From contig NZ_CP066203.1 in the NCBI RefSeq assembly GCF_017310545.1, forward strand, positions 248,001 to 312,000: a stretch of DNA of 64,000 bases. Direction: 5' to 3'. The notes beneath the pieces were generated by a model. That model saw only the letters and a list, made by a program, of their open reading frames with translations, did not search any database and was not told the DNA's origin. The DNA is from Methylacidimicrobium sp. B4. GTDB lineage: Bacteria > Verrucomicrobiota > Verrucomicrobiia > Methylacidiphilales > Methylacidiphilaceae. Shown here piece by piece: positions 36,143 to 41,030 of the stretch (position 1 is its first letter; each line of letters opens with the position of its first letter). The translations under genes were made by a program, and so were the position numbers.

Positions 36143-36660
36143 CAGCGGTTGCCTCCTTCCTCGATCAAGACCCGCGTCCCGACCGAGACATGCTCGAAGA
36201 GCTCGACCATCTCCTCGTTCCGCAGGCAGATGCAGCCCTTGCTCATGGGTTTTCCGATCGCGTCCTCGCGGTTGGTGCCGTGGAAATAGACGAAGCGCTC
36301 GCGGGTGGTCAGGTTGTGCGGCTCCATTCCCGCCAGCCAGAGGATACGGGTGAGGATCAGGCTCTGCTCGAAAAAGGGAGCGTCGGGGGTCCAGAGGAAT
36401 CCGGTCGGCCGTCGTCCGCGAAACTCGGTGCCCAGCGGGAAGCCCTCTCCGATCTTTTCGCAGACGAAGTGCCATCCGCGAGGCGTCTGGTGGCTCTCCG
36501 GCTCCTCTCCGCAGCCGAGAAGGGCGGTGCTCACCGGAGCTTCCCAGACCGGCTCCTTGCCGCGCAGGACGCGCACCTTCTGCTCCCAGACCGAGACATG
36601 CAGCCAGATCCCTTCCGGTGCGGAGGAAGGGGTGGATCGGTCCCCGAGTTCAAAATGCAT
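36139..36660 (-). CDS. L,D-transpeptidase (YkuD domain) without signal peptide
   Basis: A peptidoglycan crosslinking or lipoprotein-attaching enzyme fold. The catalytic set is His127 (VYFHGTN), Ser140 and Cys143 (PMSKGCICLRNEEM). The preceding VRVLRGKEPVWEAPVSTAL and ESHQTPRGWHFVCEKI segments match YkuD domains. At 173 residues it is a bare domain. No signal peptide or anchor is seen at the chosen ATG, yet these enzymes act in the periplasm, so either the start is further upstream within the LOG gene or export is unusual. It lies in a three-gene operon: the start overlaps the LOG gene by 11 bp, the stop overlaps the HAD start. Confidence 0.88.
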   Translation of the reverse strand: MHFELGDRSTPSSAPEGIWLHVSVWEQKVRVLRGKEPVWEAPVSTALLGCGEEPESHQTPRGWHFVCEKIGEGFPLGTEFRGRRPTGFLWTPDAPFFEQSLILTRILWLAGMEPHNLTTRERFVYFHGTNREDAIGKPMSKGCICLRNEEMVELFEHVSVGTRVLIEEGGNRW

Positions 36661-37693
36661 TGAGCCGGTCGATCAGTTGCCGCAGCCGCCCATAGGATCT
36701 GCGGTCGAAGGGAAAGCAGAGCCGCGGGAGGGAGAGCAGCTCCGGTTCGTTGGCCTCAGGCGGCAGGGCTCCGGTCCTCGAAAAGGAGCCGGGCCTGGCC
36801 ACGATGTCCTCGAAATCCCGCTCGATCGCCGCAAGCGTCGAGTCGTCGGGCGCGCGATGGATGCGCAGGGCCAGGAGGTCCCCCACGAACCGGTAGGAGT
36901 GGAAGTTGTAGTAGAACCGCTCGATCTCCCGGGTCGCCTCCTCCAGCTCATCGGTGAAGGTAAAGAGGTGAAAGTCCTGCTCGGCAATCAGCCCGCGGGA
37001 GAGCAGCTCCTTACGCAGGAACTCCTGGAAGGCGCTCCAATAGGAGCCACCCGGGTAGTCGATGAAGACCACCGGGACGATGGGGGCCTTGCCCGTCTGC
37101 ATGAGTGTAAGGGCCTCGAAGCATTCATCCATCGTTCCGAAGCCGCCGGGGAAGAGGGCGATGGCGTGGGATTCTTTGACGAAGTGGAGCTTCCGAGTAA
37201 AGAAGTAGCGAAAGAAGATCAGCTTCCGGTCGCCTTCGATCACCTCGTTCGGACGCTGCTCGCAGGGAAGGCGGATGTTGAGCCCGAAGCTCATCTCCTT
37301 TCCGGCTCCAAGCTGGGCCGCACCCATGATCCCATCGCCGCCCCCCGTCAAGACCATGAAGCCCGCCTTGGCGATCTGCTCGGCGAAGCTCCGGGCCATC
37401 CGCCAGTCTGGGGTGTCAGGAGCGAGGCGGGCCGAGCCAAAGATCGTCACCTTCTTGACTCCCCGGTAGGGTTGGAAGACGGCGTCGGCATACCGGATCT
37501 CCTTGAAGGCCTGGTTGATCATCCGGATGTCGCCGGGTGTGGTACCCTGGCGGGCGAAGCGGATCGCCGTCGCCACCATCTCGAAATACTCTCTCTGGCC
37601 GCTGCGGATGCCTGCCGCTTCGAGCAGCTCGGCGATCTTCTGATCCAGCGCGGGCTCGCCCGTGGAATAGCTCGCGCTTTTTTTTTCCGTCAT
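36650..37693 (-). CDS. LOG-family protein (TIGR00730-like nucleotide hydrolase)
   Basis: A Rossmann-like protein of the LOG/lysine decarboxylase-like family; characterised members hydrolyse nucleotide 5'-monophosphates such as cytokinin precursors. Markers are VTIFGSARLAPDTPD, VLTGGGDGIMGAAQLGA and the active-site ALFPGGFGTMDECFEALTLM. At 347 residues it is longer than plant LOG (~220), with an N-terminal helical extension (residues 1-80) and a C-terminal tail after about 270, as in the larger bacterial group. It is first in the operon with the L,D-transpeptidase and HAD genes. Its start lies only 12-30 bp from the divergent MTHFR gene. Confidence 0.87.
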   Translation of the reverse strand: MTEKKSASYSTGEPALDQKIAELLEAAGIRSGQREYFEMVATAIRFARQGTTPGDIRMINQAFKEIRYADAVFQPYRGVKKVTIFGSARLAPDTPDWRMARSFAEQIAKAGFMVLTGGGDGIMGAAQLGAGKEMSFGLNIRLPCEQRPNEVIEGDRKLIFFRYFFTRKLHFVKESHAIALFPGGFGTMDECFEALTLMQTGKAPIVPVVFIDYPGGSYWSAFQEFLRKELLSRGLIAEQDFHLFTFTDELEEATREIERFYYNFHSYRFVGDLLALRIHRAPDDSTLAAIERDFEDIVARPGSFSRTGALPPEANEPELLSLPRLCFPFDRRSYGRLRQLIDRLNAF

Positions 37694-37723: not shown

Positions 37724-39550
37724 ATGGCAAATTTATTAGAACGGCTCTCCCAGCGGCTCCTTCTGGGCGACGGCGCTCTCGGAACCTACCTCTATTCGCT
37801 CGGGCTGCCTCGCCGCTACTGCCTCGAAGAGGCGAACTTGAGTCGTCCGGATCTGGTGCGGCGCGCCCACGCCGACTACCGGGAGGCAGGGTCGGGACTC
37901 CTCCGGACCAACACGACAGGGGCCAACCGCGCGAGCCTGGGCCGGTTCGGCCTCGAGGAGAGGGTGGGCGAGATCAACCGGAGAGGGGTCGAGCTCGCCC
38001 GAGAGGCTGCCGGCCAAGGGGAGTGCTTCCTTGCCGGAAGTGTTGGCCCGGTCTGGCTCCGCGCCTGGGAGGGAAACCTCTCTCCGGAGGAGCGGCGCTC
38101 CCTTTATCGGGAGCAGATCACGGCACTGCTGGAGGCGGGTTGCGACGTCATTCTTCTGGAGACCTTCACCGAGCTTCTCGAAGCAACGCTTGCGCTCTCG
38201 GTCGCCCAGGAGGTTGGGGCTCCGCTCGTCGCGGTCTCGCTCGCGGTCTTCGAGGAGGGCCGGCTCGGCAACGGCGACACCCTCGCCTCGGGCATCGCCT
38301 CGCTCCGCCAATCGAGCGCCCGGATTGTCGGCATCGGGGCAAGCTGCGGGATCTTGGCCTCGCTCCATCTGCTCGAGGGGATCGAGCTGCATGCGGGGGA
38401 GTTTCTCTGTGCGTTCCCCAATGCGGGAAAGCCCGAGTTCTACGAAGGACGACTCACCTATTCGGCGAGCCCCGAATATTTCGCCGCGAGCGTCGAGCGC
38501 TTCGTCGAGGAGGGGGTCCATCTGCTGGGAGGGGATTATGGGACGAGCCCGCGGCACATCGCGGCGATGGCGCCCGAGCTCGCTCGCCTTCGGCCCCGCC
38601 GCGAGAAGCCGCGGCGGCTCCGCCTTCCCGTGGTCGAGGTGGCCAGGGAGGCAGAGCCTCCCAAGATCGAAGAGGAGAGCCTTGTGGACCGGTGCAAGCG
38701 GAAGCCGGTCGCCATGGTCGAGCTCGATTCGCCTCGAACGCTTTCCATGGACAAGTTCCTCGAAGGGGTTCGTGCCCTGGAGAAGGCGGGGGCCGACGCG
38801 CTCACGCTGGCCGACAACTCGCTGGCCATCCTCCGCGTCAGCAATCTCGCGGCGGCCGTGGCGGCCCAGCGCTGCGCCCGGCTCCAGACGGTCCTCCACC
38901 TCGCCTGCCGCGATCGGAACCTGCTCGGCCTCCAGTCGGAGCTCATGGGGTTGTCGGTGCTCGGCTTCCGCCACGTGCTCGCCCTGACCGGAGATCCTGC
39001 CAAGGCGGGTGACCATCCTGGTGCAACCTCGGTCTACGACCTTAACTCTCTGGGGCTAATCAAGTTAATTGCGAAGCTCAACGCAGGGGTCTCCGCCGCA
39101 GGGCGCGACCTCAAGGCGAAGACCAACTTCGTGGTCGGCTGCGCCTTCAACCCCAACTCGGTGCAGTTCGATTCACAGGTACGCAAGCTCGAGTCGAAGA
39201 TCGCCGCCGGCGCGCAATACACCATGACCCAGCCGGTCTTCGACGCGGAGCTGGTCCGCAAGAGTGCGGAGCGTCTCAAGCCATTGGGCATCCCGGTCTT
39301 CGTCGGGATCATGCCGGTGCTCAACTTCCGCAACGCCGAGTTCCTGCACAACGAGGTGCCGGGGATTTCGATCCCCGAAGGGCTGCGGGAGCGGCTACGG
39401 TATCTCGACGGGCCAAAGGCCACGGAGGTGGGGCTGGAAGCCGCGCGCGCGCTCGCGGAGGCGGTGCTCGAGCGGTTCGGCGGGATCTATCTGATTACCC
39501 CGTTCACACGCTACGACCTCTCCGTCCGGCTCCTCGAGGAGCTTTTTTGA
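37724..39550 (+). CDS. Homocysteine S-methyltransferase/methylenetetrahydrofolate reductase fusion
   Basis: A two-domain protein of about 608 residues. Residues ~1-300 form a homocysteine methyltransferase-like barrel (LLLGDGALGTYLYSLGL, then RTNTTGANRASLGRFG). Residues ~320-608 form MTHFR (VELDSPRTLSMDKFLEG, LALTGDPAKAGDHPG, CAFNPNSVQFD, YTMTQPVFDAELVRKS), which makes 5-methyl-THF from methylene-THF. In relatives the barrel ends GGCCGTTPEHI, whose two Cys bind zinc; here it reads GGDYGTSPRHI, and the upstream Cys motif is also altered (GIGASCGIL). The reductase looks intact; the methyltransferase probably lacks zinc. A longer start at 37706 adds six residues. Confidence 0.88.
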   Translation: MANLLERLSQRLLLGDGALGTYLYSLGLPRRYCLEEANLSRPDLVRRAHADYREAGSGLLRTNTTGANRASLGRFGLEERVGEINRRGVELAREAAGQGECFLAGSVGPVWLRAWEGNLSPEERRSLYREQITALLEAGCDVILLETFTELLEATLALSVAQEVGAPLVAVSLAVFEEGRLGNGDTLASGIASLRQSSARIVGIGASCGILASLHLLEGIELHAGEFLCAFPNAGKPEFYEGRLTYSASPEYFAASVERFVEEGVHLLGGDYGTSPRHIAAMAPELARLRPRREKPRRLRLPVVEVAREAEPPKIEEESLVDRCKRKPVAMVELDSPRTLSMDKFLEGVRALEKAGADALTLADNSLAILRVSNLAAAVAAQRCARLQTVLHLACRDRNLLGLQSELMGLSVLGFRHVLALTGDPAKAGDHPGATSVYDLNSLGLIKLIAKLNAGVSAAGRDLKAKTNFVVGCAFNPNSVQFDSQVRKLESKIAAGAQYTMTQPVFDAELVRKSAERLKPLGIPVFVGIMPVLNFRNAEFLHNEVPGISIPEGLRERLRYLDGPKATEVGLEAARALAEAVLERFGGIYLITPFTRYDLSVRLLEELF

Positions 39551-40391: not shown

Positions 40392-40508
40392 GGACGGCGC
40401 CCCTTCCGCCCGCTCCCGGGAACAATTTTCTTGCCTGGGAAAGGTGGCGGTTGCCTACTGGCTCCCGGATCGCTAAAAGGGAGTGTTTTACCCCCAAAAG
40501 AGAACCTG

Positions 40509-41030
40509 GTGAAGCTCGAAAGCCTGAAGCAGATCACCGCGGCGCTCAATGCCGCAGGAGCCCGGTTTCTGGTTGTCGGGGGCCTGGCGGTGGTCGCCCA
40601 TGGCTACGGGAGATCGACCATGGACATGGACCTGGTCGTCGACTTTTCCCGCAAGAACCTCGCGTCGGTCTTTTCGGCCTTGGCGCAATTGGGCTATCGA
40701 CCGGTACCGCCGGTCGATCCCATGGATCTCGCCGATCCTTCCGCCCGCAAGCGCTGGGTGGAGGAAAAGGGGATGCGCGTGCTTCCCCTCCAGAGCGAGG
40801 CCCATTGGGAGACCCCGGTCGACATCTTTGTCGTCGAGTCGTTCTCCTTCGAGCGCGAGTACGAGCACGCCCTGCAGGAGCGCCTGCCGGGCGGGGAGCC
40901 GATCCGATTCGTTCGCGTCGAGACCCTGATCGCCATGAAGCAGGGTGCGGGTCGTCATCAGGACCTCGCCGACATCGCGGAATTGAAGCTTTCGATCGAG
41001 CAAGAAAGAGGAGAGAAGAATGGAAGCTGA
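40509..41030 (+). CDS. Nucleotidyltransferase-like protein (AbiEii/MNT-type fold)
   Basis: A 173-residue protein of the polymerase-beta-like nucleotidyltransferase group. ARFLVVGGLAVVAHGYGRST and the metal-binding Asp pair in TMDMDLVVDFSRKN are the core; VDIFVVESFSFEREYEH supplies the third Asp. Later VETLIAMKQGAGRHQDLADI is as in AbiEii/MNT-type toxins and related proteins. The start is GTG 40509; the frame runs upstream to 40431 without support. It overlaps the next gene by 11 bp. Family members often act in toxin-antitoxin pairs, and the neighbour's N-terminus may be the partner. Function is inferred. Confidence 0.78.
   Translation: MKLESLKQITAALNAAGARFLVVGGLAVVAHGYGRSTMDMDLVVDFSRKNLASVFSALAQLGYRPVPPVDPMDLADPSARKRWVEEKGMRVLPLQSEAHWETPVDIFVVESFSFEREYEHALQERLPGGEPIRFVRVETLIAMKQGAGRHQDLADIAELKLSIEQERGEKNGS

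Follow-up and report, generated by a model that had tools for sequence, protein, structure and literature searches.

Every known methionine synthase is described as needing zinc (PMC7005905), and in BHMT the metal is bound by Cys217, Cys299, and Cys300 (PMC4101490). The closest described relatives of the protein considered here are the fusions of the NCBIfam family NF006396 (bifunctional homocysteine S-methyltransferase/MTHFR; Bacillus subtilis YitJ type), in which a homocysteine S-methyltransferase (HMT) barrel precedes an MTHFR half. For the zinc site of the barrel, Thermotoga maritima MetH (1q7m) serves as a reference, in which C207, C272, and C273 are the established zinc ligands. The window, the whole stretch of DNA that was analysed (64,000 nucleotides of Methylacidimicrobium sp. 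B4; genome, 2.37 Mb, one contig), encodes a fusion of this architecture in which all three of these cysteines are replaced.

The fusion gene and its locus

The fusion is a real open reading frame (ATG at 37724; stop at 39548–39550) with Pfam matches to PF02574 at residues 13–284 (168 bits) and PF02219 at residues 326–581 (99 bits), and a full-length match to NF006396 (691.8 bits; cut-off, 453). Extension of the frame upstream (to 1081 aa) was rejected as non-coding, a shadow of the antiparallel LOG gene, and no riboswitch was matched upstream of the fusion gene (Rfam). The features of the locus are:

36650–37693, minus strand: LOG-like Rossmann-fold protein (TIGR00730/Lysine_decarbox), divergent neighbour; a syntenic marker for which no mechanistic role is claimed
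37724–39550, plus strand: coding sequence of the HMT-like barrel fused to MTHFR, 608 aa (ORF, Pfam, NCBIfam)
37724–38611, plus strand: HMT-like (PF02574) barrel, residues 1–296, zinc triad lost (Pfam, AlphaFold2 model, alignment)
38612–38677, plus strand: poorly conserved linker, with residues 302–313 at pLDDT below 50 (conservation, model)
38678–39547, plus strand: MTHFR (PF02219) half, residues 319–608, catalytic core kept (Pfam, alignment)

AlphaFold2 predicted the window protein with a mean pLDDT of 91.5 (88.4 for a relative of the GGGSGV form described below). The barrel of the window model resembles BHMT (1lt8; 272 residues at an rmsd of 2.3, Z 35.5) as well as MetH, and the C-terminal half of the model resembles MTHFR (1v93; Z 30.1); at a pTM of 0.59, the placement of the halves relative to each other is only tentatively predicted.

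The LOG-like gene adjoins the MTHFR gene in 35 of 36 loci and is the sole neighbour kept throughout. Gene context was considered as a clue to the ligand of the barrel and set aside, as the LOG-like gene also flanks an ortholog that has no barrel (L128, below), one of the 35. The two genes lie head-to-head with start codons ~30 bp apart in the window and ~28 bp apart in Methylacidiphilum, a spacing that leaves room only for very short leaders or for promoters reaching into the adjacent gene; ~20 bases before the ATG of the fusion lies a TATAAT. Downstream, a 199-aa ORF (FLVVGGLAVVAHGYGRSTMDMDLVVDF; 40431–41030, plus strand) resembles a nucleotidyltransferase of the toxin-antitoxin type and matched neither Pfam nor NCBIfam models at the applied thresholds.

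Loss of the zinc site

Aligned to T. maritima MetH, the positions of C207, C272, and C273 are occupied by A206, D271, and Y272 of the fusion (MetH GINCSLG compared to GIGASCG; MetH GGCCGTTPEH compared to GGDYGTSPRH). A preliminary description made from the DNA alone had reported two altered segments, GGDYGTSPRHI and GIGASCGIL, and had proposed that the methyltransferase zinc site was lost. Both segments are present as described (residues 269–279 and 203–211, respectively), with A206 facing C207 of MetH, and the alignment to structures with a zinc site bears out the proposal, as three of three zinc cysteines are replaced. Judged as a zinc-dependent homocysteine S-methyltransferase, the protein has the barrel fold and the PF02574 profile and lacks the three zinc cysteines. 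The two segments correspond to the following features:

38339–38341, plus strand: Ala206, at the position of the MetH zinc ligand Cys207; Gly in every other member read of the clade to which the window protein belongs (alignment)
38528–38545, plus strand: GGDYGT (residues 269–274) in place of GGCCGT, with D271 and Y272 at the zinc ligands Cys272 and Cys273 (alignment)

Relatives were collected by protein searches of genome contigs and of 60 order-level and 388 phylum-level genomes, with the motif read in about 42 of 154 phylum-wide matches and in the closest ~65 matches from other phyla. The zinc positions were compared in 164 aligned rows, which represent fewer independent genomes because some genomes are represented twice: 44 rows read [GA]-DY, 12 read P-GS, and 106 read C-CC, and the remaining two are a protein without a barrel and L210, with a separate variant. 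All 44 GGDYGT and all 12 GGGSGV rows belong to the order of the window, where the triad was absent from every HMT-bearing fusion found, while the 106 rows from outside of the order keep it. The order thus holds two zinc-less states, the conserved NG...GGDYGT state of the window and a further-changed GGGSGV state. Every independently sequenced relative in the clade of the window carries the same replacement, which excludes sequencing error or chance. The probability that the substitutions reflect a sequencing artefact, frameshift, or pseudogene is negligible, as the motif recurs across many independent genomes, the frames are uninterrupted, and dN/dS values are far below 1.

A maximum-likelihood tree was built from the MTHFR half only, such that the barrel has no say in the topology. 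In this tree, a single clade (support, 99/96) unites the barrel-less protein with all zinc-less proteins from the order. The clade lies within zinc-bearing proteins from the same class of Verrucomicrobiota, and inside it the GGDYGT (99/93) and GGGSGV (100/99) proteins each form a clade. This comparison shows a single origin of the triad loss within the order. The barrel-less protein L128 is an orthologous MTHFR at the same locus in a genome (G016) with no PF02574 match anywhere; it is placed weakly beside the GGGSGV clade on a long branch (93/37), and from its position in the tree we infer that its barrel was lost.

Outside of the order, L210 (G292:C16) has lost the triad independently (VNGGQS ... 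GGFSGTTP) and has FLSF for LLETF; it is the second fusion encoded by a distantly related genome in the phylum, where the paralogue (L209) is normal. Another protein, L189 (G424:C43), keeps the three zinc cysteines with altered DGAxGT and LETF motifs (GCGAHDSR and LEFF, respectively), in a genome that also has a second copy. Rarer independent losses may exist beyond the motifs that were read.

Cysteines supplied from elsewhere in the barrel, which the preliminary description had named as a way for the site to persist, were sought in all barrel columns of 26 GGDYGT proteins, and no invariant new Cys or His was found. The only invariant Cys or His residues in the barrel of the clade are C33 and H278, both of which are also common in zinc-bearing proteins. 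An altered site, with zinc or a different metal coordinated by C208, D271, Y272, and further residues and with activity on homocysteine preserved, could draw on C208, two residues past the lost cysteine position and found in 22 of the 26 members of the clade, and on D271 as a possible ligand. However, the other four members have V, V, L, or T in place of C208 with no replacement, and as the clade has no invariant substitute Cys or His, such a metal site is judged very improbable.

Conservation of the barrel

Barrel residues were compared between the 26 GGDYGT proteins and 51 zinc-bearing proteins, with a position counted as invariant in the zinc-bearing set when shared by at least 50 of the 51. 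There are 26 such positions, and those replaced throughout the GGDYGT set are exactly the three cysteines, an outcome with a chance of ~0.0004 if any three of the 26 positions were equally likely to change. Elsewhere, the GGDYGT clade keeps D16 (25/26), A18 (26/26), G20 (26/26), T21 (25/26), N63 and N68 (26/26), and T274 (26/26), together with residues of two motifs that distinguish the two zinc-less clades:

37769–37786, plus strand: DGALGT (residues 16–21), a motif conserved among GGDYGT proteins but altered among GGGSGV proteins (alignment)
38159–38164, plus strand: E146-T147 of LLETF, kept in the GGDYGT clade (25/26 and 26/26, respectively) and lost in the GGGSGV clade (alignment)

The other HMT motifs (DGAxGT, TNxxxAN, LETF, and GTxP) are present, TNxxxAN as TNTTGAN in the window protein, and these non-cysteine motifs would line the amino-acid pocket, as in the structures of BHMT and MetH. 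The exception is L140, from the same family as the window (Methylacidiphilaceae), in which both acidic pocket residues are lost (D16N and E146K). In nine GGGSGV proteins, G20, T21, E146, T147, N233, and T274 are all gone.

At matched MTHFR identity, barrel identity in GGDYGT compared to zinc-bearing proteins was 0.53/0.50, 0.61/0.57, and 0.81/0.72 in successive bins, for pairs that are not independent of each other. Within genera, dN/dS was about 0.05–0.14 for the barrel and about 0.02–0.13 for the MTHFR half, ignoring saturated pairs. Because its conservation matches that of zinc-bearing barrels and its dN/dS is low, the GGDYGT barrel is shown to be under strong purifying selection and not decaying.

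One explanation holds that the barrel is an inert structural remnant that merely stabilises the MTHFR half or its oligomer. The GGGSGV sister clade, which keeps a full barrel despite the loss of both zinc and pocket residues, and the one genome that manages without a barrel are in line with this explanation, but D16, A18, G20, T21, N63, N68, E146, T147, and T274 are 96–100% kept in the GGDYGT clade and persist though the barrels are down to about 40% identical, beyond what a bare scaffold would need; for the window protein we consider it rather unlikely. A neofunctionalised enzyme, in which D271 and Y272 replace the zinc chemistry and a methyl group passes to a non-thiol acceptor, or another reaction is catalysed, would account for the invariance of both residues in all 26 members of the clade in the main alignment, alongside the retention of other pocket residues, for the positions fixed only in the GGDYGT clade (Y22, K236, F239, Y240, E177, and E178), and for a barrel with no sign of relaxed selection. 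Set against it are the lack of a conserved neighbour hinting at a new pathway, as the LOG-like gene accompanies the barrel-less ortholog too, and the loss of pocket residues in the sister clade and L140, or of the whole barrel in G016, with no evident replacement. A new catalytic role through D271/Y272 is possible, its positive support being their invariance only, and neofunctionalisation overall is decidedly unlikely.

The MTHFR half and methionine synthesis

Among 39 family positions with at least 95% conservation, 36 are retained by the MTHFR half, and E333, D424, and Q503 are invariant in 86 of 86 aligned proteins. D424 and Q503 align with Asp120 and Gln183 of Escherichia coli MTHFR, while E333 would be the equivalent of Glu28, judging from its position. 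Both the fold and the catalytic core residues of an MTHFR (PF02219, YitJ-type branch) are thus in place, in agreement with the earlier claim that this half retains its core motifs. The fusion is the sole PF02219 match in 13 of 13 Methylacidiphilaceae genomes, and likewise in the other fusion-bearing genomes of the order (40 genomes searched), a status that implies a predicted reductase function of the fusion. In family f2, two frames of ~604 aa (G021:C71 and G034:C83) have a weak MTHFR match (51 bits) and occur beside a classical MetF.

Methylacidiphilaceae have MetE (in the Methylacidimicrobium genome, 774 aa and 1075 bits to TIGR01371; cut-off, 930), with the zinc motifs HMC and PDC visible in that protein, and no MetH activation domain was found in the genomes searched from this family. 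Most other families of the order have MetH, with NC...GGCCG kept in every MetH barrel inspected; three genomes (G003, G027, and G035; 80–87% complete) have no clear MetE or MetH. As MetE or MetH is encoded separately, homocysteine methylation is independent of the fused barrel.

For homocysteine supply, a metabolic model of M. fumariolicum found no genomic evidence for homocysteine synthesis (PMC12341988). Strong matches to PF01053 (MetB/MetC/MetY/MetZ) and any match to PF01837 were absent from Methylacidiphilaceae and from families f3–f6 as sampled, and these genomes nonetheless carry MetE or MetH. The fused barrel was considered as the missing supply step and judged a poor candidate, because the gap is shared by G016, with no PF02574, and by G017, with only MetH, and because PF01053 does occur in most of the f8 and f9 genomes that encode this barrel.

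Proposed role of the barrel

Overall, the fusion is probably a functional MTHFR whose attached barrel has ceased to methylate homocysteine and is kept as a ligand-binding or structural module. The C-terminal half would make 5-methyl-THF and MetE (MetH in relatives) would methylate homocysteine, while the N-terminal barrel would be a pseudo-methyltransferase domain that no longer activates homocysteine. In the clade of the window, the barrel may still bind a methionine-cycle amino-acid ligand and stabilise or modulate the attached MTHFR. The preliminary description had suggested that the methyl-transfer role of the barrel was lost or changed, and that the barrel might serve as a scaffold or act on another acceptor. 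The loss of zinc-dependent homocysteine methylation gains support from the clade-wide absence of the triad, the lack of a substitute Cys or His, the separate MetE/MetH, the pocket-residue losses of the sister lineage, and the one genome without a barrel.

Two versions of this role can be distinguished, of which a ligand-responsive module is put forward tentatively, and a purely structural module is doubtful. Ligand binding is the most likely condition in the clade of the window because the non-cysteine pocket residues are nearly invariant, and these kept residues make binding more likely than a bare scaffold, as far as can be predicted from sequence. Even within this clade, predicted amino-acid binding does not extend to every member, because L140 is without D16 and E146, and the GGGSGV clade and L140 show that a putative barrel ligand can be given up. 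Retention of a domain alone does not demonstrate regulation. That the GGDYGT barrel constitutes a new domain of the HMT family, with the pocket kept and no zinc, acting either in another transfer through D271/Y272 or as a sensor that controls MTHFR, is a serious possibility that we rate somewhat short of even.

The NCBIfam name “bifunctional” appears to over-annotate the zinc-less clade, which is probably not bifunctional; the GGGSGV form also passes NF006396 (660.9 bits), and the over-assigned label affects metabolic models of verrucomicrobial methanotrophs. In and around one order, the barrel occurs as a zinc-bearing fusion (in neighbours outside of the order), as a conserved pseudo-enzyme, in a further-changed form, and not at all, with a partner MTHFR that is essentially unchanged across these states, providing a simple test of why an MTHFR retains a dead methyltransferase barrel. 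If true, the sensing version would mean that a dead enzyme had given rise to an allosteric methyl-folate switch.

Comparison with known systems

No description of a zinc-less variant of the fusion was found in the open-access literature, with subscription papers outside the scope of the search. The window protein resembles the NF006396 fusions (B. subtilis YitJ type) in domain order, length, and fold, and is ~41–62% identical to those of Bacillota and other Verrucomicrobiota, with higher identity within its genus. Unlike these fusions, its HMT half has the three zinc cysteines replaced, and HMT activity would not be expected. With the N-terminal module of T. maritima MetH (1q7m, 3bof) and human BHMT (1lt8), it shares the barrel fold and the non-cysteine motifs, whereas A206/D271/Y272 stand in the place of C217/C299/C300 of BHMT. 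With MTHFR of the MetF type (Thermus thermophilus 1v93, E. coli 1zp3), it shares the fold (Z about 29–30) and the equivalents of Asp120 and Gln183; MetF-type proteins are without an N-terminal barrel, and the window protein belongs to a distinct YitJ-type branch of MTHFR, with a PF02219 score of ~99 bits compared to ~285–325 bits for MetF proteins of related families. Eukaryotic MTHFR (6fcx, 8qa6) also carries a second domain, an AdoMet-binding regulatory domain, with a supposed sensing of the methionine cycle in common. This domain differs from the window barrel in fold and position, and the likeness is one of analogy only; on that footing, the barrel would follow a logic like that of the eukaryotic regulatory domain.
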